Part shown: positions 22,924 through 64,000 of the stretch, in pieces
Layout of the letters: every line of letters begins with the position of its first letter
How positions within the stretch are numbered: position 1 is the first letter of the stretch
Source: Cinnamomum chago
Lineage: Eukaryota > Streptophyta > Magnoliopsida > Laurales > Lauraceae
Direction: 5' to 3'
Assembly: GCA_038049695.1 (NCBI GenBank)
Contig: CP142453.1
Span: 132,854,001-132,918,000 of the forward strand
Length of the DNA: 64,000 nt
Translations under genes and position numbers: made by a program
The notes under the pieces: generated by a model
The model's database searches: none
What the model saw: only the letters and a program-made list of their open reading frames with translations
What the model was told of the DNA's origin: nothing

Positions 22924-22929
22924 TAATTT

Positions 22930-31599: not shown

Positions 31600-34590
31600 G
31601 TAACCAGAAATGACTCTCTTATTTCGTAGAAATTGAATTGGGGTTGAAAATAAAAATCCAGTTATCACCTTAGTAATTCAAATCTTATAAAAGTCAATCT
31701 TCTCGTCTACATTTCTACCTCCCCTCACCTTATATCCTACATACCTTTCCCTTTTAATAATTTTTCAGTCAAGCTCATTTGACCCTGACTTCCTTTGTAT
31801 TTAATTTTATGTATTCTATGCAAACATATAGGCCCTAAAGGTACATAAGCTCTCTGTTATAATGAAATCATCTTGTCCGTGATTAGCTATTAGTTGTGAT
31901 ATTGGTTATTGCTTAACTAATAGGTAGTATAATACATGAATAAAAACTTGTTTTTTTGACTTTTCCTTCCTTTATACAACTATCATTATACGTTTTATTA
32001 ATTTCCTTCTACCAAAAAAGAAAGAAAGAAAGGAGCCTATTCTTTAACCCTACCTTTGGGCATGATCACCAAAATAGCATGAGAATATTCAGTAGTCTCT
32101 TGCTTTTAGAATTTGTTTTAGCAAACTCATTTTTTTGTCAAAATATATTCAACAAATGACAAACATGGCCCTCTTTGATGAGAAATTATGTATTTGATAT
32201 TTTTTTGATTTGTTAAGAGCGTAGGGGGTGGGGTGGGGTGGGGTGGGTTTAACTCGGGGGGCGGGGGGGGGGGGGGGGGGGGGTTAACTAGGAGTGGTAT
32301 TTTTTACCTAACCCAACCTGCTAAAGCAACCTAAACTGAACCCACCAATTCTAGGTTTAGGCGCCCATTTTTGGGTTGGGTTTAAGTTGACATGTTTTTA
32401 CGTGATTTACAAAATGCTGGATTCAAGTTGAGTCCATTCTTACTATTCACTATGCCGGCCACTCAAATAATGGCAATGTGATGACCAAACCAACTTGAAA
32501 TTGATTTCACAATTTCATGGTTTTGGTTGACCCCTTAACTTTCAGTTTGGATTTGTATTAAGAAATTTAACTTGATTGATAAATGGGATTCAAATCGAGC
32601 CTATACATATTTATCCACTGTGCTAAACCCAACTGATCCATTATCTAATTGAAGTGATATATTGGCCGTGAGGGTAGCAATGGATCCGGTCGGATTGGCT
32701 TTTGACAAGAACTATGGGCAATATCTATAGGTTTAATTCGAACTTGATCCTTTCTTAGTTGGGTTACTGGAAATTTCTACACGAACTTACTCAAAAGTTA
32801 AAATATAGGGTTTCGTTTGTTGTGGGTTATAGTGCAATTAGTCAAATTGGATCAGGTTGGCGGGTCAAAAAATATTAGCGTAAACCCAACCCAAAATAAA
32901 AAGGGTTAACCCAAAGGTTGAATTGCTGGAATGCATTCGGGTTGGATTGTCAGGTCAAAGTCAAGGATTGTGGCCCTTAATTGGACCCTCAAAATGTTAC
33001 CATGTCCATATTAATTTGGAAACTTTGATCTTGAAAGTTAAAGAATAATTGACATTTTTACCAGATACTTCCCTTGCAAATCATGAGTGTTGCCCGGCCC
33101 AATAAGTATGTGAGAAATTCAAAAGACCTAATTTACCAACACAGCACATCTAGTAGGCAAGAACCAACAGAAGAAAGAGCCGTGTAAAAATTGGCTGGAT
33201 CAGGGATGGATTTTCAATTAAGTAATCATGCTGAGCCTAATTGAATCCTAATCCTAGGCTCTGTCTATTGATTAGGATTGCACATGTATTGGCTGAAGCA
33301 AGCCTAGACCCTGGACATCCAGTTAGGAGGGTGATGTTTAGCCCAAAGCAAGGTTGGCTTTGGCCAGGCCCAGGTTGGCCCAGCTAAGGTACAACCCCAC
33401 TATTGATGGTCAGGGCATGTTTTTGTACACCAACTTTTTGTGCCAATCTTTTTCACGGTGATTTCATTTTATCCTGAGATTAAAACTGATTTTCTACACT
33501 TCATTCTCAATTACTTGTTGTCATGAAATATTTTCCATAAATCTGTTCTTTTGTGAAATCCTACCTCTGGATTCCAAAGTTTGGATTTTGCCAAGGATTG
33601 TAGAGAATAATTTCACCTTAAGCAAAAAAACAAAAAAAAAAAGTGCATATAATGGAAATATGAAATAACAAAAAAAAAAAAAAAAAAAACTCTCTCTTTA
33701 AGATTTGTTTGTGCAATGAGAGGATTCCACACTCAGTGGAATCTTGTAATCATAGAAGAGAGGAATTTTGCATTCCCATACCTCGCATTGGAAATCAGAA
33801 TCTTCTCTCTATTGAAGAAAATAAGTTTCTTTTTCTAGTTTTGAAAAATAAATGTGTCACACCAAATATGAGCTTTATGAATTCAGTTAAAAAAGTCAAG
33901 CCAATTTTCTCTCTGTCATAAAATTCTCCCATCACACAAATGCACCCTTTGAAACTAATTTTATTTTCCGTAAAACTTTTTCATGCCAACAAATCTCAAG
34001 TTAAAAGAAAATCCTCTACTCTGTAGAAAATGGGCTATACTGCAAAAAAAAAGAAGAAAAACAAAGGTGACTTTTAGCAGCTTAAAAAGGTCTATAGCGG
34101 TGGAAGTTTTTTTCCGCAACTAAAAGTGCCATTTCTAGCTCCTCTTATGTCTAAGAGTTTCCGCCTATTTTAGCAACAAAAAATTTGAATATATGAGACT
34201 TCTAAAAATAACTATGTTTTAGCCCCCGCTCAAGGCGGGCCTAGGTGTTATAACATGAGTGCGATCGCACCTGGTTTGAGAAAATTTTAAAATAATACTT
34301 AAAGTCTTTTATTTTTTTATTTTACTTCTTAACTTGTTCATTACCCGCACCACCCAAATGGAAATCTGGAGTCCGCCCCCCACTGTTAGAATTGTAGATT
34401 CTCTGTGAACGCAAAGCCCATCACTGTCAATCCACAAATGACAATTAAGCGGCTGCCTCATCATATCTTCTCTACCTACAAGAAAGAAAAATTCCCCTCC
34501 TGCTAACAAGAAGGAACAATAATACACTAAGCTCCAAAAACCATATCATCAAGTCGTTAATACCAAACACTAGAAGAGATTCCTTGACAG
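31600..34590. other. P450 upstream region, copy 1
   Basis: Non-coding. It holds GAAA microsatellite units near 32019, a G-run at 32223-32283, diffuse GGGTTGGG repeats (32290-33400) and A tracts (33621-33688). The counterparts are 42052-45004 and 58772-61720; these two resemble each other more than they resemble this copy, for example sharing the deletion of the G-run. Confidence 0.7.
32223..32283 (+). repeat. G-rich tract with a long poly(G) run, copy 1 only
   Basis: Four GGGG(T) units are followed by GGGGGGC and an unbroken run of about 22 G. Copies 2 and 3 have only GTGGGGTGGGTGGG at the same place. The strand can form G-quadruplexes. The exact run length may be a sequencing estimate. Confidence 0.8.
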
Positions 34591-34635
34591 CCTCCCTCTC
34601 TCTTTCTCTCTCTCACAAGTTAGCAGTATATATAT
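34591..34635 (+). promoter_or_regulatory. P450 copy 1 core promoter: CT tract and TATA box
   Basis: A short interrupted CT microsatellite (34591-34614) is followed by TATATATAT at 34627-34635, about 100 bases before the start codon. The spacing suits a TATA box with a 5' UTR of about 70 bases. Confidence 0.65.
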
Positions 34636-34735
34636 GTAGGCATGGAAAATGCAAAAACCAAGGTTAAGATAACAGAAGTGTAGTTCCTGTTTAAATGCCA
34701 AAGTGGCGTTGAGCTTTCCCAGTTGAAATTCCACC

Positions 34736-36363
34736 ATGTCTTGGACTACCCTTCTCTGGGTGCTGTCAATAGGTGTCTTTTTCTTTGCATATCTCCTGCG
34801 TGCAGTGAGAGGCAAATGGGTCATAAAAAGCAAGTCCATGTTGCCTCCTGGGCCCCCAGGACTTCCCATTCTAGGGAACCTTCACATGTTGGGTGAGCTC
34901 CCTCACCATGACCTCTACAGGCTAGCCAAGGAGTATGGACCCATAATGTACTTGCGCCTCTGCTTCGTCCCCACCATCGTTGTATCATCCCCCCAAGCAG
35001 CCCAACAGTTCTTGCAGACCCATGATCTCATCTTCGCCACCAGGCCCGTCACAGAGGCCTCAAAGTACATGTCCTACGAGCACAAGAACATGTCCTTCAA
35101 TGTGTATGGGCCTTACTGGCGCAGCGTTCGCAAGTTGTGCACGTTAGAGTTGCTTAGCAACCGAAAGATTGATCAATTCAAGCCCATGAGAAGAGAAGAA
35201 CTAGGCATCATTATTGGGTCAATAAAAGATATGGCCAAGGCCCGTGTTGCCGTGGACCTCAGTGCAAAGGTGGCTTCTCTCACTGCAAACATGATATGCC
35301 TAATGGTATTTGGCAGGAAGTACATGGATGAGGACCTTGATGAAAGAGGGTTCAAAGGAGTCATGGATGAGGGGATGATCCTAGCCGCGGCCTTCAATGT
35401 AGCGGATTACATCCCTTTCATTGGGCCACTTGACCTTCAAGGGCTAAATCGCCGCATGAAGGCCTTCAGTAAGGTGTTTGATGCTTTCTTCGAAAACATC
35501 ATCAACGAACATGAGAAAAACAGGGAGAGGGGGCATCAGAGGGACTTTGTTGTCGTCTTGTTGGGCCTCAAGGAGTCCAATGATACCGATTTACAGCTCG
35601 ACCGACCCCATATCAAAGCCATCATCTTGGTAGGGGAACACAAAATACTAACACTTCATTCATAATCAAAATTAAAGATATGGGGATTTGTTTGACACAC
35701 TTAGCTATCAATTGTCCCTTTTTCTTTTTGTAGGATATGCTTGCAGCTGGCATGGACACATCATCGACCGCAATTGAATGGGCCCTCTCAGACATGTTGA
35801 AGCACCCACAAGTCTTGAAGAAGGTCCAGGAAGAGTTGGAGAGGGTGGTGGGCCTAGAGAGGATGGTGGAGGAATCAGACCTGGCCAACTTAGACTACTT
35901 TGACATGGTGGTGAAGGAAAGCATGAGGCTTCACCCTGTAGGCCCATTGCTCATCCCCCATGAGGCCATGGAGGACTGCACAGTTAATGGCTTCCACATA
36001 CCTAAAAAAGCACGCGTCATTATAAATGTTTGGGCAATCGGGCAGGACCCTGAAGTGTGGCCTAACCCCCAAGAATTCATCCCGGAGAGATTTGCAGGTA
36101 ACAATATAGACGTTAGGGGCCGCGATTTCCAACTCCTTCCTTTTGGGTCAGGACGCAGAGGTTGCCCTGGTCTGCAGTTGGGTCTCACCGTGGTTCGGTT
36201 GGTGTTGGCACAATTAGTGCATTGTTTTGATTGGGAGCTCCCAGATGGTTTGCACCCCAGCAATCTGGACATGAGCGAGAAGTTTAGCCTTGTTGTGCAC
36301 AGGGCCAATCATCTGTTGGCAATTCCAACTTATCGCCTTTGTGATTGTACTCTTAGCCAATGA
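34736..36363 (+). CDS. Cytochrome P450, CYP71 clan (CYP71AU/CYP736A-like), copy 1
   Basis: A membrane-bound haem mono-oxygenase of the ER that would use O2 and NADPH-P450 reductase to hydroxylate a small metabolite; the substrate cannot be read from sequence. Exons 34736-35629 and 35734-36363 (GT-AG, phase 0) give 507 residues, the family's usual length and its usual single intron. Seen: N-terminal membrane anchor (about 3-24), proline-rich hinge [12 protein letters not shown] (36-47), I-helix AGMDTS (303-308), ExxR at 360-363 (ESMR), PERF at 415-418 and the haem loop [10 protein letters not shown] with Cys 442. Differences from copies 2 and 3 include I158, A219, V273 (Asp in the others) and T310. 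V273 lies in the otherwise conserved DFVDVLL segment. No stop or frameshift is present. Confidence 0.93.
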
Positions 36364-37515
36364 TGCAAGGGATCGATGGTTATTGGTTGTAATCTCTTAC
36401 AACATTTTTTAGGGAGTGTATCAGAATTCTAAAAAGATCCAACTTTTAATTTCAAATTCTGCTATCATATGAATGATTTTATATATAAAAAAATTCCTTG
36501 CATTGAAGTTAGATAATATCCTTTTGGAAGACCAACATCCCAAGTCTAATAGAAGACAACAAAGTTCTCCTGTATCTGGTGTTGAAAGTGCCCCACAAGC
36601 TTTGTCCCATTCTAATTTTTCAGAAGTTGTAGTTTACTGCTCACAGCTTTTTCAGTAGAGACCCAGCATAGTTTTTTTTTTTTTTTCTTCCTTTGTTTTA
36701 ACCGTTGCTGAAAGAGACAAATCCTTTGTAAGTGTTTGTAAGGTGTTGATGTCAGCTGACATCTGATTTCACCTATGTGAGGTGCACGTATGTGCAGAAC
36801 TCACTCAAAGGAGGGGACTGGGAGACCTGGTCCCAACTATTTTAAGATAAGCTACATGATTTATGCTTCTCCATTTGGGTCTACCTTACGTTAAATCCTT
36901 AGATAAGTTGCACTTCTTCAGATCTATCTTTACTACTTTCATACTAGTCTTGTTTGACCTGCTCCTTTCCTTGAGGGAAGGTAAGCCTACATATACAAAA
37001 AAATTCCTTGCTGGCACTATCTAAATTGAGCCTCTCTAAATTTGCCTGCAAGGTTGGTTTTACGGAGAATTTGCTTCTATAATGATGAAATCGCCAATGC
37101 CTGAGGTCTTGTGACTTCAAAGATTGTGGAGGGAGTTTATTATTCCAGTGGGTGTAGTATGGTTGCAGTAAGTACGAGGAGAGGAACAAAATTGAGAATT
37201 TGTTTACCTATACAACCAAACTTAATTTGATCAGTGGTTGGTTCATGGAAACTCTAGAGGGTGCAATGCATAGCAAGAACAGGAATCACTCTAGGGAGGT
37301 CAGGCTATATTACCCTGATGTAAAATGTCCAAGAACTACACAACACACTCAACTCTAACAAATTTTAAAGAAGTTACAAAATGAACACATCGACCAGTAC
37401 ACACCAACATGGTTCTTTTTCTCCATGATTGACCATTCATTTGCACAAGAGATGTATTCTGACGCAAGCATGGCCAAAGATATCACTACAGCACCATTTT
37501 CAAGACCAATTCATT
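36364..37515. other. P450 downstream spacer, copy 1
   Basis: Non-coding. It includes the empty Copia site AGTTG at 36906-36910 (filled in copy 2). Short minus-strand frames here are repeated in copy 2 only because the whole block is duplicated. Confidence 0.6.
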
Positions 37516-39428
37516 TCAAAGACCTAAAGAGGAGATGAAAAATAAACAGACAGAGAAGAAGGTTTGAATGAGGGTGAGACCAAGGAGAATGACTGCAGCT
37601 ACCACAGAAAGAACTGCCCATGGAGTGTTGAAGTAGTTGTGTGCCAAAGCTGCCAACCCCACCAATGCCTCTTGGTCTTGCAATACAAGTTCACTCCTGT
37701 GTACATGCCACAAAGGTAATGGTCCAAGAGGTAAAGGCGGGAATGGTTGGAGGCTGCCCTGGTTAGCTTGTTGAAGAGAAGAGACACATCTTCATTGCTG
37801 CCCAACATATGTTCAGTAATGTTTTCACTGTGGAGCAATGCGATTGCGAGGTGTTGATGAGGTAATCAAGGAACAGGAACATGTAGTAAAGAGAGGTTTC
37901 ATATTTGGGCAAAGTCGTTCGAAGGTGATGAGATTTCGAAACTGACACATTGTAAAGGAGTCTGTAAAGGTGACAGGAGGTGTCAGATCCAGTAAAGGAA
38001 GAACCATAGCTCGCTATAGCGAGCGTGGCGGACGGAGGAAGCCCGGTTGGATACGAACTCTGTCTTAGAATTTGAAAAAGGACTTCCTTCCTGATTGTAT
38101 TATTCTTAGAAGTCTTATGCACGGATTTGAGGCTAAATATTGAGTGTTTCTTACAACCCAAAGAGACATAGATTATCTCTCAAGATCTAAATTAGAGATC
38201 TAATTGAGAGAAATCTTCTCTAATGATTTTTTTAAGAGTTTTGTTGCCAAATTCTCTAGAGAGTAAGTTTCTTCTACATCCCTTGTAGAAGATCATCTTC
38301 TTGCGTAAAAGATTTGATGAGTCAAGCACTGGATTGAGTCTTCTGTAATCAATGGTGTGAAGTCGTTGAAGCGTAAAGTAACACAATGTAATTGTAGTTC
38401 TTAGGTAGGGGATATCTAGGGGGAATCTGAGTTTCTTGTAATTGCGAGATTCATAGTGCTTGATTGTTAATCCATTTCGGATATATGATTTTTCACCCGG
38501 TTAGGGTTTTCCACGTTATATTTGGTGTCCTTGTGGTGTGTGCCTTTTGAGTTTATTTTCCGCTGCATACTTCATTATTTTTTGCACACAATTGGATTGT
38601 TTTATTGAGTAGACCAATCTAGAGATCTCATACCAGATCCTTCAAAATCTATGACAAAAGGTGGGTTTTTATCACCCCCATTGTTGAATTCAATGTCCAA
38701 GAGGCTACCCTCTTTCTTCTTGAACTTAATCCCTGCCTCTACGAGCACTATCGCACAAGGGATCATCTATCCATTTCTTCCCTGAATCTTCTTCGAGATG
38801 ACTTGGACAATTGTGTGACCTAGGAAGGAGAAATAAGTAATAAAGATGAAGCAAATGATGGACGGGTTTAGGAGGAAGACGTATTGCAGCCTTCTAATTG
38901 TAGACACTGAGCAAGATGTAAGAAAGAAATTGGGTATGATTGGCCCTCAGTTGCAATGTAAAATATGAGCTCAAGCATGAAGAAAGGGAGCTGGTTTAAT
39001 AGTAAGAGGATATCATACTGTATTTGCGGAACTAGCCAAACCATAGTGGGTACTCGTCCTCTTTATTCTCCTTGAGCCAGAGAAGGAACTCCACTATGAA
39101 GCACCCAATAAAAATTAGCATCTCCACAAACTGCTTGCGTCCAAGTTTGATGCTATTTTCATAGTAGCAGCTTCTGGCCGTCCTCTCCAACAGCTTAATT
39201 CTATCAATGTAGTCCTTCAAATGATAGTTCTCGTTCCCATAGAGGATTGCTTGGACATATCGCCATTTATATATGCTTCTCCATGTCCCTGAGCTTCGTT
39301 TTACCCCAGTGGTAATGCCCAATGGAGGATATCAAGGGCTCATAAAGCCTTGTCCTCAGCTATTTGAAGAAGTGTTTCTGGGACTTATGGGTTGGAAGTT
39401 GTGTGGGGTCATTTCATAATTACAGATT
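37516..39428 (-). pseudogene. DUF247/UPF0481 protein, degenerate, copy 1
   Basis: DUF247 proteins are plant-specific membrane-anchored proteins of unclear role. Reading the minus strand, pieces of one protein appear in order: SIGHYHWGK near 39330, HLKDYIDRIKLLERTARSCY and FVEMLIFIGCFIVEFLL (39032-39250), GSLLDIEFNNG and PPFVIDFEGS (about 38640-38760), KYETSLYYMF and FLDYLINTSQ (about 37860-37900), EDVSLLFNKL (about 37770), and the C-terminal membrane segment NTPWAVLSVVAAVILLGLTL (about 37570-37630). The pieces are in different frames, with stops between them. A 650-bp insertion (37991-38640) splits it, and the Tat LTR at 39429 cuts off its N-terminus. It is certainly non-functional. Confidence 0.88.
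37991..38640. mobile_element. 650-bp insertion in the DUF247 pseudogene, probably Copia-LTR derived
   Basis: The segment is bounded by direct repeats CAGATCC (37984-37990 and 38634-38640), and removing it joins the DUF247 frame. It contains GGGTTTTCCACGTTATA and TTTATTTTCCGCTGCAT, a pair typical of the 3' part of plant Copia LTRs. The ends do not read TG...CA cleanly and the repeat is 7 rather than 5 bases, so the type is uncertain. Confidence 0.5.
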
Positions 39429-40067
39429 TGTGGGGGACCGCTCCCCAATTCCAGGATTATCCCTGGTCTCGGTGTTGAGCCAGCTCAATAGAAGCGCCAG
39501 TTCGGGGAAGCGCGGAGTCCGTCTCGGTGGCCACGCCTACGGGTGTCCACCCCGGTCTCGGTCCTAGCTTGATCTCGGTCTGCTGTCATTCAGCCATAAA
39601 TGCAACTATAAATGCACTGCCATGACGGTGGACGACGACTGACAAGTAGAGTGGGCGCCGGACCTAGATAAGTGGCACGCCTTATCTCAGGGTTACATCC
39701 ACAGGCATAGGGGATGGCCCGATGGGACACTCACTTTTTACCTACCCCCACTCAGGAGAGAAAGTACATACTGATGGGACTTTCATCTCTCCCTAAGGGT
39801 CCACTCCAATGAGACTCCCACGTCTATATAATGCATGGAGAAAAACGACAGGAGGTAAGCAGTAAGCCTGACCTATACTTTTTCTTCCCGATTTCTCTCT
39901 CAGTTACCAAGCTAACTTAGCCATCGGAATGCCCTCGACTACCCACAGCCAGGGGCCCTGACTCTTGTTCTTCCTTTCAGGTCACCGGACGCTGATCCTT
40001 TCCAAGAATCATCAAATTAAGAGTTTAATCCTCTCCAAACTAAGTTCGTAATTTTTAGGCACTTACA
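39429..40067 (+). repeat. Tat-lineage (Retand-like) Gypsy LTR, copy 1
   Basis: A 639-bp LTR starting TGTGGGGGACC and ending GGCACTTACA, followed by a primer-binding site. A TATATAA box lies at 39825-39831. It interrupts the DUF247 pseudogene. No second LTR in the same orientation is present in the unit because the element is cut at the duplication junction. Confidence 0.8.
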
Positions 40068-40069
40068 GT

Positions 40070-40086
40070 TGGCGCCGTCTGTGGGA
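40070..40086 (+). promoter_or_regulatory. Primer-binding site, Tat type, copy 1
   Basis: TGGCGCCGTCTGTGGGA follows the LTR by two bases, the characteristic Tat/Retand primer-binding site. The same site in copy 2 lies at 56790-56806. Confidence 0.85.
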
Positions 40087-40121
40087 ACAGAATCTCTACC
40101 AAAACCAAACCTGCAAAAGCC

Positions 40122-42065
40122 ATGCCTCCAAAAACCAAATACGGCGGCGAGGGATCGTCAAAGTCCCGGAGAGCGTCATCCTTTCCTCCTCCGGAACAAC
40201 CCCCATTTCCACCGTTTTCGCAGCCTCAGCCGCCCCAGCCAGTACCTCCAGTGCTACCTACTGGCGTTCACTCTGCTCTTCTTCCCATTCTGGGTCCAGC
40301 GGAGGTTCCCCCCGTCCAACAGGAGTTGCCAGGGATTCCCCGCCAGAGAAAGTCCGGAGGAAATTTCGGCCCCATGTACACAGAGGGTGTTATCCAGTCG
40401 AATTCCTCATCTCGACCTATGACAACACTCCCCCGGCGTAACGACCGCCATGAGGCTACTCACCCCCTAGATGATCAGCCACCTAGGGGCTCGCAGCGGA
40501 ATGTCTCCCCACCAGATCCTCGACGACGAGGCAAAACCCTTGTCCGAGCAAAATCCCATCACTCTTATCATCGCATTCACAATGACGATCAGTCCTTTCA
40601 TCGGGCCCATGGAGGAGAAGACGACCCCCTGCTTGATGAGCTCGATGCCCAGAATCGGGTCCTCCAAGAGAAAGAGGAGTTGATTCGTCGTCTCCGAGAG
40701 CAGCTTGAGGCAAATGATAGAAGAACTCTTGCTCCACCTCCCAGGCGACAGCAACACCGTTCGGACAGCCGGGACTTGAGACAGGTCCTCAACGACAGAA
40801 GACGAAATCGCTGCGAAGAAGAAGGCTCAAGCAGCAGCTATCTGCGTAGCAATCTCGGGGGGTCGCGTCGCGAGCCAGAATCCCCGAGGCCAGAGAACAT
40901 GACGGGCCTGAGGGAGCTGCTCGACCACTATGTAAAACAAGAGGTCCAGGCCCGGATGACCAAGATCGGCTTCTCCCGAGACCAATCAGAGGCGTGTGAT
41001 GCAGAAGACCAGGGCATGTCCCCCTTCTCCCAGGAAATAAAAGACTTCTCTCTCCCCGAGAGATTTAGCGTGCCGAGGTTCGTCCTCTATGACGGGACCT
41101 CGGATCCAAAAGCGCACCTATGACATTTCACTCAGCGGATGTCGGTGTGGGGAGATGTCGGCCACCTTAACTATAGGGTCTTTTCCTCCAGTCTAGGTGA
41201 CCTCCCACTCCGATGGTTCTGCGCGCTCCCTCCTGGATCGGTCTCGAGTTGGCGGCAGCTCCGAAGCTCCTTCGTTGAGAAGTTCCAAGCGCACCGTGTC
41301 ATCCCGAAGACGGGTGGCAACCTCATGGCGATCCGTATGAAGGACAGTGAGAGCATTATTGCGTTCACCAGGAGATTCTGGACGATCTATAGCTAGATCA
41401 CGGACGCTAAGGACGGCATCGCCATCATGTGTTTTCGGCAGGCGTTGCTCTTAGGCAATGAGCTCCGCAGAGACCTGGTCCAGACCCCCGTGACCACAAT
41501 GAAGGCGCTAATGGCCAGGGTGAATCAGTACATCGAACAGGAGGAGGACGAAGCTCATGGCAAGGAGCGGTTCGGCCTCTCGCAGAAGGGCCAAACCTCC
41601 AAAGGAGAGGGGACGTTCCCCAAGCAGAGGCCAGATAAATGGAGGGCCACCGCCAGTTCGGCAACCTTCTCCACCTCGATCTTTGGCAGCAGCAAGAGAC
41701 CAAAGTTCAATCCTACCAGGCCGGCCGGAGATCCTTACAGGGCCGTCAATGTTATCTTTAAAGAGCCCATTTACAGACTCTTAGGCAAGATCAAAGCAGA
41801 ACCTTACTTCCAGTGGCCACAGCCGATGAAGGGCGACCCATCTACCCGAGACCGGAGCAAGAATTGTTCTTACCATAAGCAACACGGGCACATGACTGAG
41901 GACTGCATGACCCTGAAGTCCCACCTCGAGAAGCTCGTCAGGAATGGACACCTTCGGGAGTATATCAAAGAAGGAGAAATGATCAACCAGGCTCAGCAGC
42001 GCGCTCCACCACCTCCACCCGATGATGATCAAGACAGCGACGGGCCAGTGGGTAACCAGAAATGA
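40122..42065 (+). pseudogene. Tat-lineage gag, copy 1, two internal stops, cut at the junction
   Basis: One frame from ATG 40122 encodes a proline-rich N-terminus, a coiled-coil stretch (LQEKEELIRRLREQL), the retrotransposon gag core (ALPPGSVSSWRQLRSSFVEK) and a zinc-knuckle-like CSYHKQHGHMTEDC. It is interrupted by TGA at 41121-41123, shared with copy 2, and TAG at 41394-41396, unique to copy 1. The frame runs a few codons past the duplication junction at 42051 and stops at 42065, so its last residues (NQK) come from the next unit. Protease and all of pol are missing. Confidence 0.88.
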
Positions 42066-42470
42066 CTCTCTTATTTCATAGAAATTGAATTGGGGTTGGA
42101 AATAAAAATCCAATCATCACCTTAGTAATTCAAATCCTATAAAAGTCAATCTTTTCGTCTACATCTCTACCTCCCCTCACCTTATATCCTACATACCTTA
42201 CCCTTTTAATACTTTTTCGGTGAAGCTCGTTTTACCCTGACTTCCTTTGTATTTAATTTTATGTATTCTATGCAAACATATGGGCCCTAAAGGTACATAA
42301 GCTCTCTGTTATAATGAAATCATCTTGTCCGTGATTAGCTATTAGTTGTGATATTGGTTATTGCTTAACTAATAGGTAGTATAATACATGAATAAAAACT
42401 TCTTCTTTTTTTTCACTTTTCCTTCCTTTATACAAGAATCATTATATGTTTTATTAATTTCCTTCTACAA

Positions 42471-42502
<32 letters not shown>

Positions 42503-45004: not shown

Positions 45005-45005
<1 letters not shown>

Positions 45006-45053
<48 letters not shown>

Positions 45054-45071
45054 AGTTAGCAGTATATATAT
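45006..45071 (+). promoter_or_regulatory. P450 copy 2 core promoter: long CT microsatellite and TATA box
   Basis: An uninterrupted CT run of 45 bases (45006-45050) precedes TATATATAT at 45063-45071. It is about twice as long as the tract in copy 1. Confidence 0.65.
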
Positions 45072-47356: not shown

Positions 47357-47361
47357 AGTTG

Positions 47362-52695: not shown

Positions 52696-53624
52696 TGTTG
52701 GGTTTTTTTTAGTTTCAAAAATTCTAAAGGATGTTTTTGTAAAAGTTGTTTTGTCTTTTCTCTTGTTGCTTTATGGGTTGTGTAGGCTTATGGAAAACAA
52801 CACATCCCACATTGCTCAAGTTCAACTTTTGAGGTGGGTTTATATGTGTTTTCATTCCTTTACACTTTAAGAATAGTTGAAGGCTTTTGCCATGGGCCCT
52901 ATGCGCGCACGCGAGCCAGGCCCAACCCGGGGTGCTGGGTCCGGAAAACGTTTAACCGGGCGTGCGTCCGCGACGCGCATCCTGCGTGTATATCGCGCGC
53001 AGGGGGGGTGCAAATCCCGGTCGGCTGGCCTAGAAGAGGGACCCATATATTGATATAGAAATGGCAACCTTTTGCCATTTTTTTTAATGATGATTTTAAA
53101 CCTTCCTTTAATCGCTTAAAACGTTGATTAACGTTGTGAATTAATCTTTAAAACGTTGTGAATTAATGTGGATTAATCACTGTTTTAATGTGGATTAAAT
53201 ATGGCCCAACGGAATACTAATCCAATATATATTAGGGCCATCTGCGCATTTGAAAAATATAGAAAAAACCCGTTTTCCTCTTCTTCTTCTTCTCTCTGTT
53301 TTTTCCCTCTGAGCATTGACAAAAGGGAGTCTGCTACATTCGGGCCTGAGTTGCGAACAGAGCCTGAAGCGAGAAGGCCGTTGTATCCTGGGGGCAGTTC
53401 TGCTGAGAACCTTCGCATCTGGGAATAGAATCCAGGGGGCGGAACTCGTCCTAAAGAGAGCGTCATCAGACGTGCCTCGGTCACAGATCTTCTACTGTTG
53501 CTGATCTACGCTCTTCTTTTTCCGCCTACAAGTCACAGTTGCAGCCTTCTTCAATCGGGTACTTTCGTTCCATTTACATTCTGTTTTACAGAACCATCTG
53601 CTCTGTAGCCAGTAGTTTTCAACA
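52696..53624 (+). repeat. Copia 3' LTR (929 bp)
   Basis: Starts TGTTGGGTTTT and ends TTTTCAACA at the AGTTG duplication. It is 76 bases longer than the 5' LTR through several local indels and is otherwise almost identical to it. Confidence 0.9.
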
Positions 53625-53629
53625 AGTTG

Positions 53630-54234
53630 CACTTCTTCAGATCTATCTTTACTACTTTCATGCTAGTCTTCTTTAACCTGCTCCTTTCCTTGAGGGAAGG
53701 TAAGCCTACATATACAAAAAAATTCCTTGCTGGCACTATCTAAATTGAGCCTCTCTAAATTTGCCTGCAAGGTTGGTTTTACGGAGAATTTGCTTCTATA
53801 ATGATGAAATCGCCAATGCCTGAGGTCTTGTGACTTCAAAGATTGTGGAGGGAGTTTATTATTCCAGTGGGTGTAGTATGGTTGCAGTAAGTACGAGGAG
53901 AGGAACAAAATGGAGAATTTGTTTACCTATACAACCAAACTTAATTTGATCAGTGGTTGGTTCATGGAAACTCTAGAGGGTGCAATGCATAGCAAGAACA
54001 GGAATCACTCTAGGGAGGTCAGGCTATATTACCCTGATGTAAAATGTCCAAGAACTACACAACACACTCAACTCTAACAAATTTTAAAGAAGTTACAAAA
54101 TGAACACATCGACCAGTACACACCTACATGGTTCTTTTTCTCCATGATTGACCATTCATTTGCACAAGAGATGTATTCTGACGCAAGCATGGCCAAAGAT
54201 ATCACTACAGCACCATTTTCAAGACCAATTCATT
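53630..54234. other. P450 downstream spacer, copy 2, right of the Copia element
   Basis: Counterpart of 36911-37515. No gene recognised. Confidence 0.6.
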
Positions 54235-56148
54235 TCAAAGACCTAAAGAGGAGATGAAAAATAAACAGACAGAGAAGAAGGTTTGAATGAGGGTGAGACC
54301 AAGGAGAATGACTGCAGCTACCACAGAAAGAACTGCCCATGGAGTGTTGAAGTAGTTGTGTGCCAAAGCTGCCAACCCCACCAATGCCTCTTGGTCTTGC
54401 AATACAAGTTCACTCCTGTGTACATGCCACAAAGGTAATGGTCCAAGAGGTAAAGGCGGGAATGGTTGGAGGCTGCCCTGGTTAGCTTGTTGAAGAGAAG
54501 AGACACATCTTCATTGCTGCCCAACATATGTTCAGTAATGTTTTCACTGTGGAGCAATGCGATTGCGAGGTGTTGATGAGGTAATCAAGGAACAGGAACA
54601 TGTAGTAAAGAGAGGTTTCATATTTGGGCAAAGTCGTTCGAAGGTGATGAGATTTCGAAACTGACACATTGTAAAGGAGTCTGTGAAGGTGACAGGAGGT
54701 GTCAGATCCAGTAAAGGAAGAACCATAGCTCGCTATAGCGAGCGTGGCGGACGGAGGAAGCCCGGTTGGATACGAACTCTGTCTTAGAATTTGAAAAAGG
54801 ACTTCCTTCCTGATTGTATTATTCTTAGAAGTCTTATGCACGGATTTGAGGCTAAATATTGAGTGTTTCTTACAACCCAAAGAGACATAGATTATCTCTC
54901 AAGATCTAAATTAGAGATCTAATTGAGAGAAATCTTCTCTAATGATTTTTTTAAGAGTTTTGTTGCCAAATTCTCTAGAGAGTAAGTTTCTTCTACATCC
55001 CTTGTAGAAGATCATCTTCTTGCGTAAAAGATTTGATGAGTCAAGCACTGGATTGAGTCTTTTGTAATCAATGGTGTGAAGTCGTTGAAGCGTAAAGTGA
55101 CACAATGTAACTGTAGTTCTTAGGTAGGGGATATCTAGGGGGAATCTGAGTTTCTTGTAATTGCGAGATTCATAATGCTTGATTGTTAATCCATTTCGGA
55201 TATATGATTTTTCACCCGGTTAGGGTTTTCCACGTTATATTTGGTGTCCTTGTGGTGTGTGCCTTTTGAGTTTATTTTCCGCTGCATACTTCATTATTTT
55301 TTGCACACAATTGGATTGTTTTATTGAGTAGACCAATCTAGAGATCTCATACCAGATCCTTCAAAATCTATGACAAAAGGTGGGTTTTTATCACCCCCAT
55401 TGTTGAATTCAATGTCCAAGAGGCTACCCTCTTTCTTCTTGAACTTAATCCCTGCCTCTACGAGCACTATCGCACAAGGGATCATCTATCCCATTTCTTC
55501 CCTGAATCTTCTTCGAGATGACTTGGACAATTGTGTGACCTAGGAAGGAGAAATAAGTAATAAAGATGAAGCAAATGATGGACGGGTTTAGGAGGAAGAC
55601 GTATTGCAGCCTTCTAATTGTAGACACTGAGCAAGATGTAAGAAAGAAATTGGGTATGATTGGCCCTCAGTTGCAATGTAAAATATGAGCTCAAGCATGA
55701 AGAAAGGGAGCTGGTTTAATAGTAAGAGGATATCATACTGTATTTGCGGAACCAGCCAAACCATAGTGGGTACTCGTCCTCTTTATTCTCCTTGAGCCAG
55801 AGAAGGAACTCCACTATGAAGCACCCAATAAAAATTAGCATCTCCACAAACTGCTTGCGTCCAAGTTTGATGCTATTTTCATAGTAGCAGCTTCTGGCCG
55901 TCCTCTCCAACACCTTAATTCTATCAATGTAGTCCTTCAAATGATAGTTCTCGTTCCCATAGAGGATTGCTTGGACATATCGCCATTTATATATGCTTCT
56001 CCATGTCCCTGAGCTTCGTTTTACCCCAGTGGTAATGCCCAATGGAGGATATCAAGGGCTCATAAAGCCTTGTCCTCAGCTATTTGAAGAAGTGTTTCTG
56101 GGACTTATGGGTTGGAAGTTGTGTGGGGTCATTTCATAATTACAGATT
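54235..56148 (-). pseudogene. DUF247/UPF0481 protein, degenerate, copy 2
   Basis: Same broken gene as 37516-39428, with the same order of conserved pieces, the same 650-bp insertion (54710-55359) and the same Tat LTR at the N-terminal end. Few substitutions separate the two, for example IDRIKVLERT here against IDRIKLLERT in copy 1. The shared damage shows that decay preceded the duplication. Confidence 0.88.
54710..55359. mobile_element. 650-bp insertion in DUF247, copy 2
   Basis: Identical in length and boundaries to 37991-38640, with CAGATCC at 54703-54709 and 55353-55359. Confidence 0.5.
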
Positions 56149-56787
56149 TGTGGGGGACCGCTCCCCAATTCCAGGATTATCCCTGGTCTCGGTGTTGAGC
56201 CAGCTCAATAGAAGCGCCAGTTCGGGGAAGCGCGGAGTCCGTCTCGGTGGCCACGCCTACGGATGTCCACCCCGGTCTCGGTCCTAGCTTGATCTCGGTC
56301 TGCTGTCATTCAGCCATAAATGCAACTATAAATGCACTGCCATGACGGTGGACGACGACTGACAAGTAGAGTGGGCGCCGGACCTAGATAAGTGGCACGC
56401 CTTATCTCAGGGTTACATCCACAGGCATAGGGGATGGCCCGATGGGACACTCACTTTTTACCTACCCCCACTCAGGAGAGAAAGTACATACTGATGGGAC
56501 TTTCATCTCTCCCTAAGGGTCCACTCCAATGAGACTCCCACGTCTATATAATGCATGGAGAAAAACGACAGGAGGTAAGCAGTAAGCCTGACCTATACTT
56601 TTTCTTCCCGATTTCTCTCTCAGTTACCAAGCTAACTTAGCCATCGGAATGCCCTCGGCTACCCACAGCCAGGGGCCCTGACTCTTGTTCTTCCTTTCAG
56701 GTCACCGGACGCTGATCCTTTCCAAGAATCATCAAATTAAGAGTTTAATCCTCTCCAAACTAAGTTCGTAATTTTTAGGCACTTACA
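56149..56787 (+). repeat. Tat-lineage Gypsy LTR, copy 2
   Basis: A 639-bp LTR, nearly identical to 39429-40067, followed by the same primer-binding site at 56790-56806. Confidence 0.8.
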
Positions 56788-56841
56788 GTTGGCGCCGTCT
56801 GTGGGAACAGAATCTCTACCAAAACCAAACCTGCAAAAGCC

Positions 56842-58785
56842 ATGCCTCTAAAAACCAAATACGGCGGCGAGGGATCGTCAAAGTCCCGGAGAGCGTCATC
56901 CTTTCCTCCGCCGGAACAACCCCCATTTCCACCGTTTTCGCAGCCTCAGCCGCCCCAGCCAGTACCTCCAGTGCTACCCACTGGCGTTCACTCTGCTCTT
57001 CTTCCCATTCTGGGTCCAGCGGAGGTTCCCCCCGTCCAACAGGAGTTGCCAGGGATTCCCCGCCAGAGAAAGTCCGGAGGAAATTCCGGCCCCATGTACA
57101 CAGAGGGTGTTGTCCAGTCGGATTCCTCATCTCGACCTATGACAACACTCCCCCGGCGTAACGACCGCCATGAGGCTACTCACCCCCTAGATGATCAGCC
57201 ACCTAGGGGCTCGCAGCGGAATGTCTCCCCACCAAATCCTCGACGACGAGGCAAAACCCTTGTCCGAGCAAAATCCCATCACTCTTATCATCGCATTCAC
57301 AATGACGATCAGTCCTTTCATCGGGCCCATGGAGGAGAAGACGACCCCCTGCTTGATGAGCTCGATGCCCAGAATCGGGTCCTCCAAGAGAAAGAGGAGT
57401 TGATTCGTCGTCTCCGAGAGCAGCTTGAGGCAAATGATAGAAGAACTCTTGCTCCACCTCCCAGGCGACAGCAACACCGTTCGGACAGCCGGGACTTGAG
57501 ACAGGTCCTCAACGACAGAAGACGAAATCGCTGCGAAGAAGAAGGCTCAAGCAGCAGCTATCTGCGTAGCAATCTCGGGGGGTCGCGTCGCGAGCCAGAA
57601 TCCCCGAGGCCAGAGAACATGACGGGCCTGAGGGAGCTGCTCGACCACTATGTAAAACAAGAGGTCCAGGCCCGGATGACCAAGATCGGCTTCTCCCGAG
57701 ACCAATCAGAGGCGTGTGATGCAGAAGACCAGGGCATGTCCCCCTTCTCCCAGGAAATAAAAGACTTCTCTCTCCCCGAGAGATTTAGCGTGCCGAGGTT
57801 CGTCCTCTATGACGGGACCTCGAATCCAGAAGCGCACCTATGACATTTCACTCAGCGGATGTCGGTGTGGGGAGATGTCGGCCACCTTAACTACAGGGTC
57901 TTTTCCTCCAGTCTAGGTGACCTCCCACTCCGATGGTTCTGCGCGCTCCCTCCTGGATTGGTCTCGAGTTGGCGGCAGCTCCGAAGCTCCTTCGTTGAGA
58001 AGTTCCAAGCGCACCGTGTCATCCCGAAGACGGGTGGCAACCTCATGGCGATTCGTATGAAGGACAGTGAGAGCATTATTGCGTTCACCAGGAGATTCTG
58101 GACGATCTATAGCCAGATCACGGACGCTAAGGACGACATCGCCATCATGTGTTTTCGGCAGGCGTTGCTCTTAGGCAATGAGCTCCGCAGAGACCTGGTC
58201 CAGACCCCCGTGACCACAATGAAGGCGCTAATGGCCAGGGTGAATCAGTACATCGAACAAGAGGAGGACGAAGCTCATGGCAAGGAGCGGTTCGGCCTCT
58301 CGCAGAAGGGCCAAACCTCCAAAGGAGAGGGGACGTTCCCCAAGCAGAGGCCAGATAAATGGAGGGCCACCGCCAGTTCGGCAACCTTCTCCACCTCGAT
58401 CTTTGGTAGCAGCAAGAGACCAAAGTTTAATCCTACCAGGCCGGCCGGAGATCCTTACAGGGCCGTCAATGTTATCTTTAAAGAGCCCATTTACAGACTC
58501 CTAGGCAAGATCAAAGCAGAACCTTACTTCCAGTGGCCACAGCCGATGAAGGGCGACCCATCTACCCGAGACCGGAGCAAGAATTGTTCTTACCATAAGC
58601 AACATGGGCACATGACTGAGGACTGCATGACCCTGAAGTCCCACCTCGAGAAGCTCGTCAGGAATGGACACCTTCGGGAGTATATCAAAGAAGGAGAAAT
58701 GATCAACCAGGCTCAGCAGCGCGCTCCACCACCTCCACCCGATGATGATCAAGACAGCGACGGGCCAGTGGGTAACCAGAAATGA
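56842..58785 (+). pseudogene. Tat-lineage gag, copy 2, one internal stop, cut at the junction
   Basis: Same frame and domain order as 40122-42065. The TGA at 57841-57843 is shared with copy 1, but the second stop is absent: this copy reads CAG where copy 1 reads TAG. The part after the stop is open for 308 codons from 57859 and ends at 58785, 14 bases beyond the junction with copy 3. Protease and pol are absent. Confidence 0.88.
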
Positions 58786-59187
58786 CTCTCTTATTTCATA
58801 GAAATTGAATTGGGGTTGGAAATAAAAATCCAATCATCACCTTAGTAATTCAAATCCTATAAAAGTCAATCTTTTCGTCTACATCTCTACCTCCCCTCAC
58901 CTTATATCCTACATACCTTACCCTTTTAATACTTTTTCGGTGAAGCTCGTTTGACCCTGACTTCCTTTGTATTTAATTTTATGTATTCTATGCAAACATA
59001 TGGGCCCTAAAGGTACATAAGCTCTCTGTTATAATGAAATCATCTTGTCCGTGATTAGCTATTAGTTGTGATATTGGTTATTGCTTAACTAATAGGTAGT
59101 ATAATACATGAATAAAAACTTCTTCTTTTTCACTTTTCCTTCCTTTATACAAGAATCATTATACGTTTTATTAATTTCCTTCTACAA

Positions 59188-59219
<32 letters not shown>

Positions 59220-61720
59220 AGCCTATTTTATAACTCTACCTTTGGGCCTAATCACCAAAATATCATGAGAATTATTCACTAGTCTCTTGGTTTTAGAATT
59301 TGTTTTAGCATACTCATTTTTTTTGTCAAAATATATTCAACAAATGAAAAACATGGCCCTCTTTGATGAGAAATTATGTATTTGATATTCTTTGACTTAT
59401 TAAGAGAGTGGGGTGGGTGGGTTAACTAGGAGTGGTATTTTTTACCTGACCCAACCTGCCAAAGCAACCTAAACTGAACCCACCAATTCTAAGTTTAGGC
59501 GCCCATTTTTGAGTTGGGTTTAAGTTGGCATTTTTTTACGTGATTTACAAAATGTTGGATTCGGGTTGAGTCCATTCTTACTATTCACTATGCCGGCCCG
59601 GGCTGACTCAAATAATGGCAATGTGATGACCAAACCAACCTGAAATTGATTTCACAATTTCATGGTTTTGGTTGACCCCTTAACTTTCAGTTTGGATTTG
59701 TATTAAGAAATTTAACTTGATTGATAAATGGGATTCAAATTGAGCCTATGCATATTTATTCACTATGCTAAACCCAACTGATCCATTATCTAATTGAAGT
59801 GATATATTGGCCGTGAGGGTAGCAATGGATCCGGTCGGATTGACTTTTGACAAGAACTATGGGCAATATCTATAGGTTTAATTCGAACTTGATCCTTTCT
59901 TAGTTGGGTTGTTGGGAATTTCTACATGAACTTACTCCAAAGTTAAAATATTGGGTTTTGTTTGTTGTAGGTCATAGTGCAATTAGTCAAACTGGATCAG
60001 GTTGGCGGGTCAAAAAATATTAGCATAAACCCAACCCAAAATAAAATGGGTTAACCCAAAGGTTGAATTGCTGGAATGGGTTGGATTGGATTGTCAGGTC
60101 GAAGTCAAGGATTGTGGCCCCTTAATTGGACCCTCAAAATGTTACCATGCCGATATTAATTTGGAAACTTTAATCTTGAAAGTTAAAGAATAATAGACAT
60201 TTTTACCAGATACTTACCCTTGCAAATCATGAGTGTTGCCCGGCCCAATAAGTATGTGAGAAATTCAAAAGACCTAATTTACCAACACAGCTCATCTGGT
60301 AGGCAAGAACCAACAGAAGAAAGAGCTGTAAAAATTGGCTGGATCAGGGATGGATTTTCAATTAAGTAATCATGCTGAGCCTAATTGAATCCTAATCCTA
60401 GGCTCTGTCTATTGATTAGGATTGCACATGTATTGGCTGAAGCAAGCCTAGACCCTGGACATCCAGTTAGGAGGGTGATGTTTAGCCCAAAGCAAGGTTG
60501 GCTTTGGCCAGGCCCAGGTTGGCCCAGCTAAGGTACAACCCCACTATTGATGGTCATGGGTATGTTTTTGTGCACCAACTTTTTGTGCCAATCTTTTTCA
60601 CGGTGATTTCATTTTATCCTGAGATTAAAACTGATTTTCTACACTTCATTCTCAAATACTTGTTGTCATGAAATATTTTCCATAAATCTGTTCTTTTGTG
60701 AAATCCTACCTCGGGATTCCAAAGTTTGGATTTTGCCAAGGATTGTAGAGAATAATTTCACCTTAAGCAAAAAACAAAAAAAGAAAAGTGCATATAATGG
60801 AAATATGAAATAACAAAAAAAAAAAAATCACTCTCTCTTTAAGATTTGTTTGTACAATGAGAGGATTCCACGCTCAATGGAATCTTGTGATCATATAAGA
60901 GAGGAATTTTGCATTCACAAACCTCGCATTGGAAATCAAAATCTTCTCTCTATTGAAGAAAATAAGTTTTTTTTTTCTAGTTTTGAAAAATAAATGTGTC
61001 ACACCTAATATGAGCTTTATGAATTCAGTTCAAAAAGTCAAACCAATTTTCTCTCTATCATAAAATTCTCCCGTCACACAAATGCACCCTTTGAAACTAA
61101 TTTTATTTTCCGTAAATTTTTTCATGCCAACATATTCTCAGGTTAAAAGAAAATCCTCTACTCCCTAGAAAATGGGCTATACTGCAAGAAAAAAAAAGGG
61201 TGACTTTTAGCTGCTTAAAAAGGTCTATAGCGGTGGAAGTTTTTTTCCACAGCTAAAAGTGCCATTTCTAGCTCCTCCTATGTCTAAGAGTTTCCGCCTA
61301 TTTTAGTAAAAGAAAATTTAAATATATGACACTTCTAAAAATAACTATGTTTTAGCCCCTGCTCAAGGCGGCCCTAAGTGTTATAACGTGAGTGCGGTTG
61401 CACCTGGTTTGAGAAAATTTTAAAATAATACTTAAATTTTTTTATTTTTTTATTTTACTTCTTAACTTGTTTATTACCCGCACCACCCAAATGGAAATCT
61501 GGAGTCCGCCCCCACTGTTAGAATTGTAGATTCTCTGTGAAGGCAAGGCCCATCACTGTCAATCCACAAACGACAATTAAGCGGCTGCCTCATCATATCT
61601 TCTCTACCTACAAGAAAGAAAAATTCCCCTCCTGCTAACAAGAAGGAACAATACACTAAGCTCCAAAAACCATATCATCAAGTCGTTAATACCAAACACT
61701 AGAAGAGATTCCTTGACAGC
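58772..61720. other. P450 upstream region, copy 3
   Basis: Counterpart of 31600-34590 and 42052-45004. It matches copy 2 best, sharing the expanded GAAA run (about 59187-59219) and lack of the poly(G) tract. Confidence 0.7.
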
Positions 61721-61764
<44 letters not shown>

Positions 61765-61782
61765 AGTTAGCAGTATATATAT
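61721..61782 (+). promoter_or_regulatory. P450 copy 3 core promoter: compound CT/CA microsatellite and TATA box
   Basis: CT repeat at 61721-61745 runs into a CA repeat at 61746-61763, then TATATATAT at 61774-61782. Only this copy has the CA part. Confidence 0.65.
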
Positions 61783-61882
61783 GTAGGCATGGAAAATGCA
61801 AAAACCAAGGTTAAGATAACAGAAGTGTAGTTCCAGTTTAAATGCCAAAGTGGCGTTGAGCTTTCCCAGTTGAAATTCCACC

Positions 61883-63510
61883 ATGTCTTGGACTACCCTT
61901 CTCTGGGTGCTGTCAATAGGTGTCTTTTTATTTGCATATCTCCTGCGTGCAGTGAGAGGCAAATGGGTCATAAAAAGCAAGTCCATGTTGCCTCCTGGGC
62001 CCCCAGGACTTCCCATTCTAGGGAACCTTCACATGTTGGGTGAGCTCCCTCACCATGACCTCTACAGGCTAGCCAAGGAGTATGGACCCATAATGTACTT
62101 GCGCCTCTGCTTCGTCCCCACCATCGTTGTATCATCCCCCCAAGCAGCGCAACAGTTCTTGCAGACCCATGATCTCATCTTCGCCACCAGGCCCGTCACA
62201 GAGGCCTCAAAGTACATGTCCTACGAGCACAAGAACATGTCCTTCAATGTGTATGGGCCTTACTGGCGCAGCGTTCGCAAGTTGTGCACGTTAGAGTTGC
62301 TTAGCAACCGAAAGATTGATCAATTCAAGCCCATGAGGAGAGAAGAACTAGGCCTCATTATTGGGTCAATAAAAGATATGGCCAAGGCCCGTGTTGCCGT
62401 GGACCTCAGTGCAAAGGTGGCTTCTCTCACTGCAAACATGATATGCCTAATGGTATTTGGCAGGAAGTACATGGATGAGGACCTTGATGAAAGAGGGTTC
62501 AAAGGAGTCATGGATGAGGGGATGATCCTAGCCGCGTCCTTCAATGTAGCGGATTACATCCCTTTCATTGGGCCACTTGACCTTCAAGGGCTAAATCGCC
62601 GCATGAAGGCCTTCAGTAAGGTGTTTGATGCTTTCTTCGAAAACATCATCAACGAACATGAGAAAAACAGGGAGAGGGGGCATCAGAGGGACTTTGTTGA
62701 CGTCTTGTTGGGCCTCAAGGAGTCCAATGATACCGATTTACAGCTCGACCGACCCCATATCAAAGCCATCATCTTGGTAGGGGAACACAAAATACTAACA
62801 CTTCATTCATAATCTAAATTAAAGATATGGGGATTTGTTTGACACACTTAGCTATCAATTGTCCATTTTTCATTTTGTAGGATATGCTTGCAGCTGGCAT
62901 GGACACATCATCGGCCGCAATTGAATGGGCCCTCTCAGACATGTTGAAGCACCCACAAGTCTTGAAGAAGGTCCAGGAAGAGTTGGAGAGGGTGGTGGGC
63001 CTAGAGAGGATGGTGGAGGAATCAGACCTGACCAACTTAGACTACTTTGACATGGTGGTGAAGGAAAGCATGAGGCTTCACCCTGTAGGCCCATTGCTCG
63101 TCCCCCATGAGGCCATGGAGGACTGCACAGTTAATGGCTTCCACATACCTAAAAAAGCACGCGTCATTATAAATGTTTGGGCAATCGGGCAGGACCCTGA
63201 AGTGTGGCCTAACCCCCAAGAATTCATCCCTGAGAGATTTGCAGGTAACAATATAGACGTTAGGGGTCACGATTTCCAACTCCTTCCTTTTGGATCAGGA
63301 CGCAGAGGTTGCCCTGGTTTGCAGTTGGGTCTCACCGTGGTTCGGTTGGTGTTGGCACAATTGGTGCATTGTTTTGATTGGGAGCTACCAGATGGTTTGC
63401 ACCCCAGCGATCTGGACATGAGCGAGAAGTTCAGCCTTGTTGTGCACAGGGCCAATCATCTGTTGGCAATTCCAACTTATCGCCTTTCTGATTGTACTCT
63501 TAGCCAATGA
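61883..63510 (+). CDS. Cytochrome P450, CYP71 clan (CYP71AU/CYP736A-like), copy 3
   Basis: Exons 61883-62776 and 62881-63510 encode 507 residues with intact hinge, AGMDTS, ESMR, PERF and haem loop. Substitutions found only here include L16, T349, V372, H428, D475 and a Ser for Cys four residues before the DCTLSQ end region. H428 replaces an Arg eight residues before the haem-loop start and is the change most likely to matter. The 3' flank is shortened: an inverted LTR begins 120 bases after the stop codon and may alter polyadenylation. Confidence 0.93.
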
Positions 63511-63629
63511 TGCAAGGGATGGTTATTGGTTGTAATCTCTTACAACTTTTTTTAGGGAGTGTATCAGAATTCTAAAATGATCCAACTTTTAATTTCAAAT
63601 TCTGCTATCAATATCATATGAATGATTTT

Positions 63630-64000
63630 TGTAAGTGCCTAAAAATTACGGACTTAGTTAATGGAGGATTAAGCTCCTGATGCAAGGTTTTGAGGGAGGT
63701 AAGGGGAATGGATCGAGCCTCCAATGACCTGAAAGGAAAAGAACAACGGTCAGAGACCCTGGCTGTGGGTAGCCGAAGGCCCTCCGACGGTTAAGTTAGT
63801 GCAGGGACTGAGAGAATGGAGAGAAAGAGTTCTGGGAGGGAGAGATTATGCGTGTGCGTACCTTTCATGGATTCTCTCATGCAATATATAGGTGGAGAAG
63901 TCATCATTGGACTGTCTTCCTGAGGAGACGGGAGTCCCATCTGAGCGTACTCTCATCTCCTGAGTGGGGGTAGGTAAAAAGGGGACGTCCCATCGGACCA
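63630..64000 (-). repeat. Inverted, diverged Tat-type LTR (partial)
   Basis: From TGTAAGTGCCTAAAAATTAC (63630) the sequence is the reverse complement of the 3' part of the LTR at 39429-40067, with clear substitutions and indels throughout. The left flank is unit sequence, not a primer-binding site, so this is the outer end of a minus-strand 3' LTR or a solo LTR. It continues beyond the window. Confidence 0.8.

Follow-up and report, generated by a model that had tools for sequence, protein, structure and literature searches.

A stretch of 64,000 nucleotides of the Cinnamomum chago genome (GenBank assembly GCA_038049695.1, contig CP142453.1, positions 132,854,001 to 132,918,000 of the forward strand), referred to here as the window, carries a tandem array of units, each with one cytochrome P450 gene resembling the CYP736A subfamily. 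Probably, this array goes back to an older tandem duplication, after which the units were reshuffled by unequal crossover, gene conversion or both. Three things are directly observed, namely the anatomy of the array, a mosaic of divergence between its copies and the intact reading frames of all three P450 genes. All positions below are those of the window.

Self-comparison of the 64-kb window with BLAST and a repeat finder gave three copies of the unit, in direct order and in register, starting at 31596, 42048 and 58768. The copies, their junctions and the two blocks that span these junctions are the following:

31596..42047, plus strand: unit copy 1, 10,452 bp, with a unique left flank (from self-alignment and edge comparison).
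42048..58767, plus strand: unit copy 2, 16,720 bp, or 10,457 bp when an inserted 6,263-bp copia element is subtracted.
58768..63629, plus strand: unit copy 3, only the left 4.9 kb, then interrupted by a long terminal repeat (LTR).
42048, unstranded: junction of copies 1 and 2, inside the gag gene of a Tat-type retrotransposon.
58768, unstranded: junction of copies 2 and 3, the same as the first.
36957..43580, unstranded: junction-spanning block J1, the right part of copy 1 plus the left part of copy 2, near-identical to J2.
53676..60298, unstranded: junction-spanning block J2, the right part of copy 2 plus the left part of copy 3, with an approximate left end.

A first-pass annotation, made from the letters of this DNA, had described three head-to-tail copies of a 10.4-kb unit with identical junctions. 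The unit length is borne out by copy 1 and by copy 2 without its copia element, and the register and the junctions stand as described. Copy 3, in turn, follows the unit only to 63629, and the whole window holds about 2.5 units rather than three complete ones.

Both junctions read as the end of the Tat gag, ...gacgggcca, joined directly to GTGGGTAACC, and they are exactly alike over 162 bases to the left and 185 bases to the right of the join. At the left breakpoint copy 1 has GTGAGTAACC where both junctions have GTGGGTAACC. The left flank of copy 1 is unique and differs from the junction sequence; it gave no blastn match to the unit at 1e-5. In translation, gag ends at the join as ...DSDGP followed by VGNQK, while those Tat gag relatives that reach this point continue as ...DSDEPEGII... 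or ...DSEPEG[IV]I.... Because these relatives read on past the stop of the unit, the join lies inside gag and not at the end of the element, and a founding join at an LTR end is thereby ruled out. A microhomology of 3-6 bp (GTGRGT) at the join is possible, as judged from the protein relatives. Copies in direct orientation that share one junction are one mark of tandem arrays under concerted evolution. Amplification on a circle or by a transposable element, as for EPSPS, is made less probable by the units seen in the window, which are adjacent, in direct order and end inside gag.

Each of the three units contains a complete P450 gene of two exons, which encodes 507 amino acids, has a single GT-AG intron of 104 bp and ends in TGA:

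34736..36363, plus strand: P450 copy 1, exons 34736-35629 and 35734-36363, 507 amino acids, with V273 (D in copies 2 and 3).
45172..46799, plus strand: P450 copy 2, exons 45172-46065 and 46170-46799, 507 amino acids.
61883..63510, plus strand: P450 copy 3, exons 61883-62776 and 62881-63510, 507 amino acids.

Both exons of copy 1, the copy that was scanned, match PF00067. The hallmarks of a P450 are the heme-binding FxxGxRxCxG, ExxR, PERF and the I-helix AGxDTS; these are found at positions 435, 360, 415 and 303 in all three copies and, together with a PPGPPGLP hinge, make up five motifs kept in every protein. The earlier description of three intact P450 frames is thus fully upheld. The proteins differ from one another at 5-10 of 507 residues. 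For the copy 2 protein the best 120 of 4090 matches were considered, scored among the 7989 candidates sharing most words. The best full-length match among these is MRB53_004134 of Persea americana, with 93% identity over 507 amino acids; a longer Mucuna protein scores higher, at 61% identity. Named relatives among the matches listed are CYP736A members and "71AU50-like" proteins, including CYP736A266 (P0092; 65% identity, 92% covered) and CYP736A54 (P0116; 59%, 99% covered). By convention, more than 55% amino-acid identity to named members defines a subfamily, and by domain, motifs and this level of identity the three genes are predicted to belong to CYP736A. With the Persea protein as query, tblastn against the window (E values to 1) found just these three genes and no older P450 relics. 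Upstream of the start codon all copies have a stretch of TATATATA, as well as a CT repeat that differs in length between them; the repeat lies at 45006-45050 in copy 2 (22.5 copies) and at 61721-61745 in copy 3 (12.5 copies).

The soundness of the predicted enzymes can be judged against a panel of 110 homologues of 470-560 amino acids, from which 10 of the 120 listed were excluded for length. At position 76 all three copies have C, where the homologues have G in 110 of 110 cases. V273 of copy 1 occurs in none of the 110, and 106 of them have D. Over 191 highly conserved columns the copies depart at 11-12, compared with a median of 5 and a maximum of 21 for the homologues and 9 for Persea, a count that is biased toward more departures in the copies as the columns were picked on the homologues without them. 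The copies also vary at positions 16 and 32, which few homologues cover (18/110 and 6/110). T310A and I372V are further differences between copies, presumably near substrate-recognition sites 4 and 5. From their sequences, it is plausible that the P450 copies are active enzymes.

The divergence between the copies is strikingly uneven along the unit. Differences were counted over aligned ungapped sites and are given in the order of pairs 1-2, 1-3 and 2-3, with segments in copy 1 coordinates; the site tests and shuffles assume that sites are independent. At the far left (31596-33152, 1506 sites) there are 75, 73 and 6 differences, and in the adjoining segment (33408-34500, 1073 sites) 52, 49 and 64 (4.6-6.0%); in the latter, copies 1, 2 and 3 have 18, 33 and 30 private sites. 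For copies 2 and 3 this is a step from 0.40% to 5.96% (P = 9e-19). A higher mutation rate at 33408-34500 was considered and ruled out, since pair 1-3 is there as far apart as in 31596-33152 (P = 0.78) and pair 2-3 is far higher. The gene bodies are only 0.6-1.4% apart, with 9, 10 and 4 differences in the 5' part (34501-35629, 1126 sites), 1, 3 and 2 in the intron (104 sites) and 2, 13 and 11 from exon 2 to 36403 (666 sites). Further right, copies 1 and 2 differ at 18 of 445 sites in 36496-36956 and at 30 of 5091 (26 transitions, 4 transversions) in 36957-42047, again a sharp step (P = 1e-8). The two parts of J1 and J2 accordingly differ at 30/5091 and 6/1506 sites. Copy 2 is therefore closest to copy 3 at the far left and in the 5' part of the gene, and to copy 1 in exon 2 and at the far right. 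Over 190 informative sites (5 three-way sites dropped) the class of the most-alike pair switches 65 times, and shuffling the sites 20,000 times never gave so small a number; such changes of the most-alike pair are the mark of exchange tracts. Within the gene, the best switch falls between 35767 and 35884 in a test on the 25 sites left after removal of copy-2-private and three-way sites, and 28 of 2000 shuffles split as well.

One short stretch, 1.3-1.6 kb upstream of the P450 gene, is alike in all copies:

33141-33420 (copy 1), 43569-43846 (copy 2) and 60287-60565 (copy 3): about 280 bp, differing at 3-4 of 277 sites per pair and flanked by segments about 5% apart in at least one pair.

This stretch could be a conversion patch or a conserved element.

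For the P450 genes, the ratio of nonsynonymous to synonymous divergence (dN/dS) is 0.46, 0.31 and 0.28 for the three pairs, from 8, 19 and 14 changes. The first-pass annotation had proposed such a comparison as a check, and the ratios are indeed below 1, each figure coming from just those few changes. It had also set the intact P450 against the dead remainder of the unit. This remainder is dead, as stated, since it comprises only fragments of a DUF247 gene and a Tat element cut inside gag, but the opposition is in itself no proof of selection, because the changes are few and the silent sites are low too. Silent divergence in the gene is 1.0, 2.3 and 1.4%, against 4.7, 4.5 and 5.8% upstream (P = 6e-6, 0.018 and 3e-6), where the roughly 694 silent sites, which combine synonymous, intron and adjacent non-coding sites, are a hand-entered approximation. 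Selection at the protein level alone would leave the silent sites unlowered. Therefore, sequence exchange between the P450 copies, with selection acting on top of it, is likely.

On the basis of these data, we infer the following order of events. In the beginning, a Tat LTR element would have inserted downstream of a lone P450 gene. A founding duplication would then have linked the interior of the Tat gag to a site some 3.1 kb upstream of the P450 gene, probably with little homology at the join, and this would have created the junction that is now repeated. Subsequently, the DNA outside the gene would have come to differ by about 5% from unit to unit. Non-allelic homologous recombination, by unequal crossover, gene conversion or both, would then have reshuffled these 10.45-kb units and left the gene bodies and the junction-spanning blocks near-identical and the copy 2 gene chimeric, with a copy-3-like 5' half and a copy-1-like exon 2. 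An unequal crossover inside the P450 gene is suggested in particular, because such an event leaves the copy-3-then-copy-1 order seen in copy 2. Finally, the copia element would have inserted in copy 2 and a Tat-type LTR would have landed next to the copy 3 gene. A likely consequence is an increased dose of a single P450, whose copies differ by a few residues. At rates that we take to be 1.3e-8, 7e-9 and 3e-9, a divergence of 5% would correspond to about 1.9-8 million years and one of 0.3-0.6% to about 0.1-1 million years; these ages are not relied on.

Several points weigh against this history of duplication and reshuffling. At 33408-34500 copy 2 matches neither of the other copies, and at 36496-36956, beyond the reach of copy 3, it departs from copy 1. 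The switch within the gene is only moderately supported, part of the likeness of the gene bodies may come from purifying selection, and with C76 and V273 the activity of the predicted enzymes is not assured. A lone unequal crossover is insufficient because of the variants that copy 2 has for itself at 33408-34500 and the difference at 36496-36956. To fill this gap, a third lineage of units, additional conversion tracts or a donor from outside the window would be required. Two histories fit: either conversion tracts later covered the gene and the junction block of an old three-unit array, or a crossover came first and conversion from a unit outside the window followed. It could further be imagined that the locus is polymorphic in P450 copy number and actively recombining, that exchange centres on the transcribed body of the gene (about 34522-36404), with continuing divergence of promoter-distal DNA, and that the third lineage seen in copy 2 came from a longer array, only part of which lies in the window. 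We regard this extension as rather doubtful; if true, the dose could change while the enzyme stays uniform.

The explanations that compete with duplication followed by exchange each account for a part of the data. A single recent burst of repeated tandem duplication as the origin of all three copies, with no later events, agrees with the intact frames, the identical junctions and the large blocks only 0.3-0.6% apart, and the annotation of a recent expansion of a metabolic gene holds insofar as copy number was gained with intact frames. "Recent" fits some blocks only, as the segments at about 5% make the founding duplication not very recent. Neither the uneven divergence along the unit nor the copia insertion in copy 2 had entered that account. 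The segments at about 5% (31596-33152 for copy 1 versus 2 and 3, and 33408-34500 for all pairs) lie beside blocks at 0.4%, and the copia element and the second LTR each occur in one copy only, which makes a simple recent expansion the least probable of the alternatives. An assembly artefact, in which fewer true units exist and two haplotypes were placed end to end, with 36957-43580 and 53676-60298 as alleles of each other, has somewhat more in its favour. J1 and J2 differ by 0.4-0.6%, within the ordinary range of heterozygosity for an outcrossing tree, and a haplotype switch would yield the same order of pieces as unequal crossover. On the other hand, the three-way divergence of 4.6-6.0% at 33408-34500, with private sites in every copy, requires at least three distinct sequences, copy 1 has the corresponding site without copia, and the second LTR of copy 3 is found in neither copy 1 nor copy 2. 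We consequently hold such an artefact to be unlikely.

The remaining alternatives concern the genes themselves. Purifying selection alone, without exchange, could keep the P450 bodies similar, as the dN/dS values and the conserved core motifs would allow; the silent sites, as approximated above, are nevertheless low as well, and near-identical Tat and DUF247 DNA and sharp switches are left unexplained, so that there is little chance of this being the whole explanation. It is slightly less improbable, yet still distinctly so, that the array is decaying, with frames that are open owing to youth alone and enzymes that are already impaired. Cysteine at an invariant glycine in all copies, V273 in copy 1 and the surplus of departures at conserved columns, whose choice favours departure in the copies, point in this direction. 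In the opposite direction point the absence of any stop or frameshift from the three copies, the intact heme, ExxR, PERF and AGxDTS motifs and splice sites, the dN/dS below 1 and the at least one homologue with 21 departures.

Besides the P450 gene, the units contain remnants and insertions of the following kinds:

37519..39331, minus strand: DUF247 (PF03140) remnant of copy 1; its DNA is also repeated in copy 2.
39715..42047, plus strand: truncated Tat-type Gypsy element of copy 1, with an LTR end to about 40066, a primer-binding-site-like sequence and gag cut at the unit junction.
47362..53624, plus strand: copia element, in copy 2 only, with LTRs 47362-48214 and 52696-53624 and the target-site duplication AGTTG.
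63630..64000, minus strand: second Tat-type LTR, starting with TGTAAG on the plus strand and running off the window.

The DUF247 pieces lie downstream of the P450 gene, on the minus strand and in separate frames: an N-terminal piece within 39035-39331 scores 51.5 bits, above the Pfam cut-off, and a C-terminal piece within 37519-37791 scores 21.7 bits, under the cut-off of 24.8. In the Tat element, the sequence after the LTR is what we take to be a primer-binding site, from its resemblance to a remembered pattern. Its gag is broken by stops in copy 1, where two pieces have no Pfam match, and the copy 2 frame at 57844-58767 matches PF03732; among the protein matches listed for gag the top one (unnamed) has 61% identity and the first named, from Persea americana, 55%. 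The LTR at 63630 runs in reverse orientation and has 71% identity to the end of the Tat LTR of the unit (39715-40067 in copy 1); it is present only in copy 3, the corresponding point in copies 1 and 2 being free of any LTR. The copia element of 6,263 bp has a single stop-to-stop frame of 1,322 amino acids, in which gag, integrase and reverse transcriptase domains were found piecewise (PF14223, PF00665, PF07727). Its empty site is intact in copy 1, copy 3 ends before the corresponding point, and the element is young. Its two LTRs are free of substitutions along most of their length, yet have a tight cluster of indels and replaced or rearranged bases, for which template switching, repair or a fault in the assembly could be responsible.

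To the left of the array, pieces of PF03094 within 16402-16755, 14855-15088 and 8363-8773 mark an MLO-family gene at 8363-16755 on the minus strand. An Athila-like Gypsy element occupies 22037-30142; its LTRs of about 889 bp differ at 3 positions, its outer ends have no clear target-site duplication, and the top match of its gag is from Persea americana (71%). Between these LTRs, with gag-protease present, lies a reversed polygalacturonase fragment (GH28, PF00295, 3e-17; 26574-26888, minus strand), a possible case of gene capture by a retrotransposon. The Persea americana matches of the P450, the Tat gag and the Athila-like gag fit a plant of the Lauraceae, and the absence of near-identical matches from those listed would point to another species of the family or to a locus not yet annotated. 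For RNA genes, the window gave no Rfam match at gathering score.

The array seems to show a plant P450 cluster, probably a magnoliid one, caught between duplication and divergence. A single identity figure is misleading for such tandem copies, in which adjoining segments lie more than 10-fold apart (0.40% and 5.96% for copies 2 and 3). Given reads, the switch points and the insertions would let a real array be told from an assembly error.

The nearest published parallel found is HMA4 of Arabidopsis halleri, a tandem plant triplication whose three copies are 99-99.3% identical in coding sequence, which is attributed to ectopic gene conversion, and whose promoter segments group otherwise than the coding segments (PMC3749932). 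HMA4 encodes a metal pump for which population and expression data exist, whereas the P450 is known from one sequence; moreover, the homogenised DNA here also takes in a junction-spanning block that is gene-free or dead. The human RCCX locus with CYP21 is likewise a tandem module bearing a P450, in which unequal crossover changes copy number and gene conversion transfers short tracts (PMC8362596). Its modules, however, hold several genes, among them the pseudogene CYP21A1P, while in the present array no gene but the P450 looks alive, and its frame is open in all three copies. In grapevine most P450 sequences lie in physical clusters that arose by tandem or segmental duplication, and the likeness of four large clusters extends to their non-coding DNA (PMC6023221); that description, as excerpted, deals with cluster sizes and expression, including pathogen-induced CYP736 members, rather than with a unit-by-unit recombination mosaic. 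CYP736A167 of sandalwood, which acts in specialised metabolism from santalene to santalol (PMC10235099), is likened to the present genes by its subfamily name. In rice, gene conversion is reported to occur most often in pairs separated by less than 5 kb and to be infrequent past about 35 kb (PMC2277409); the distances between successive P450 gene starts in the array are 10.4 and 16.7 kb. Set beside these systems, the partly swapped tandem P450 copies are a tidy but ordinary case of plant gene-cluster evolution.

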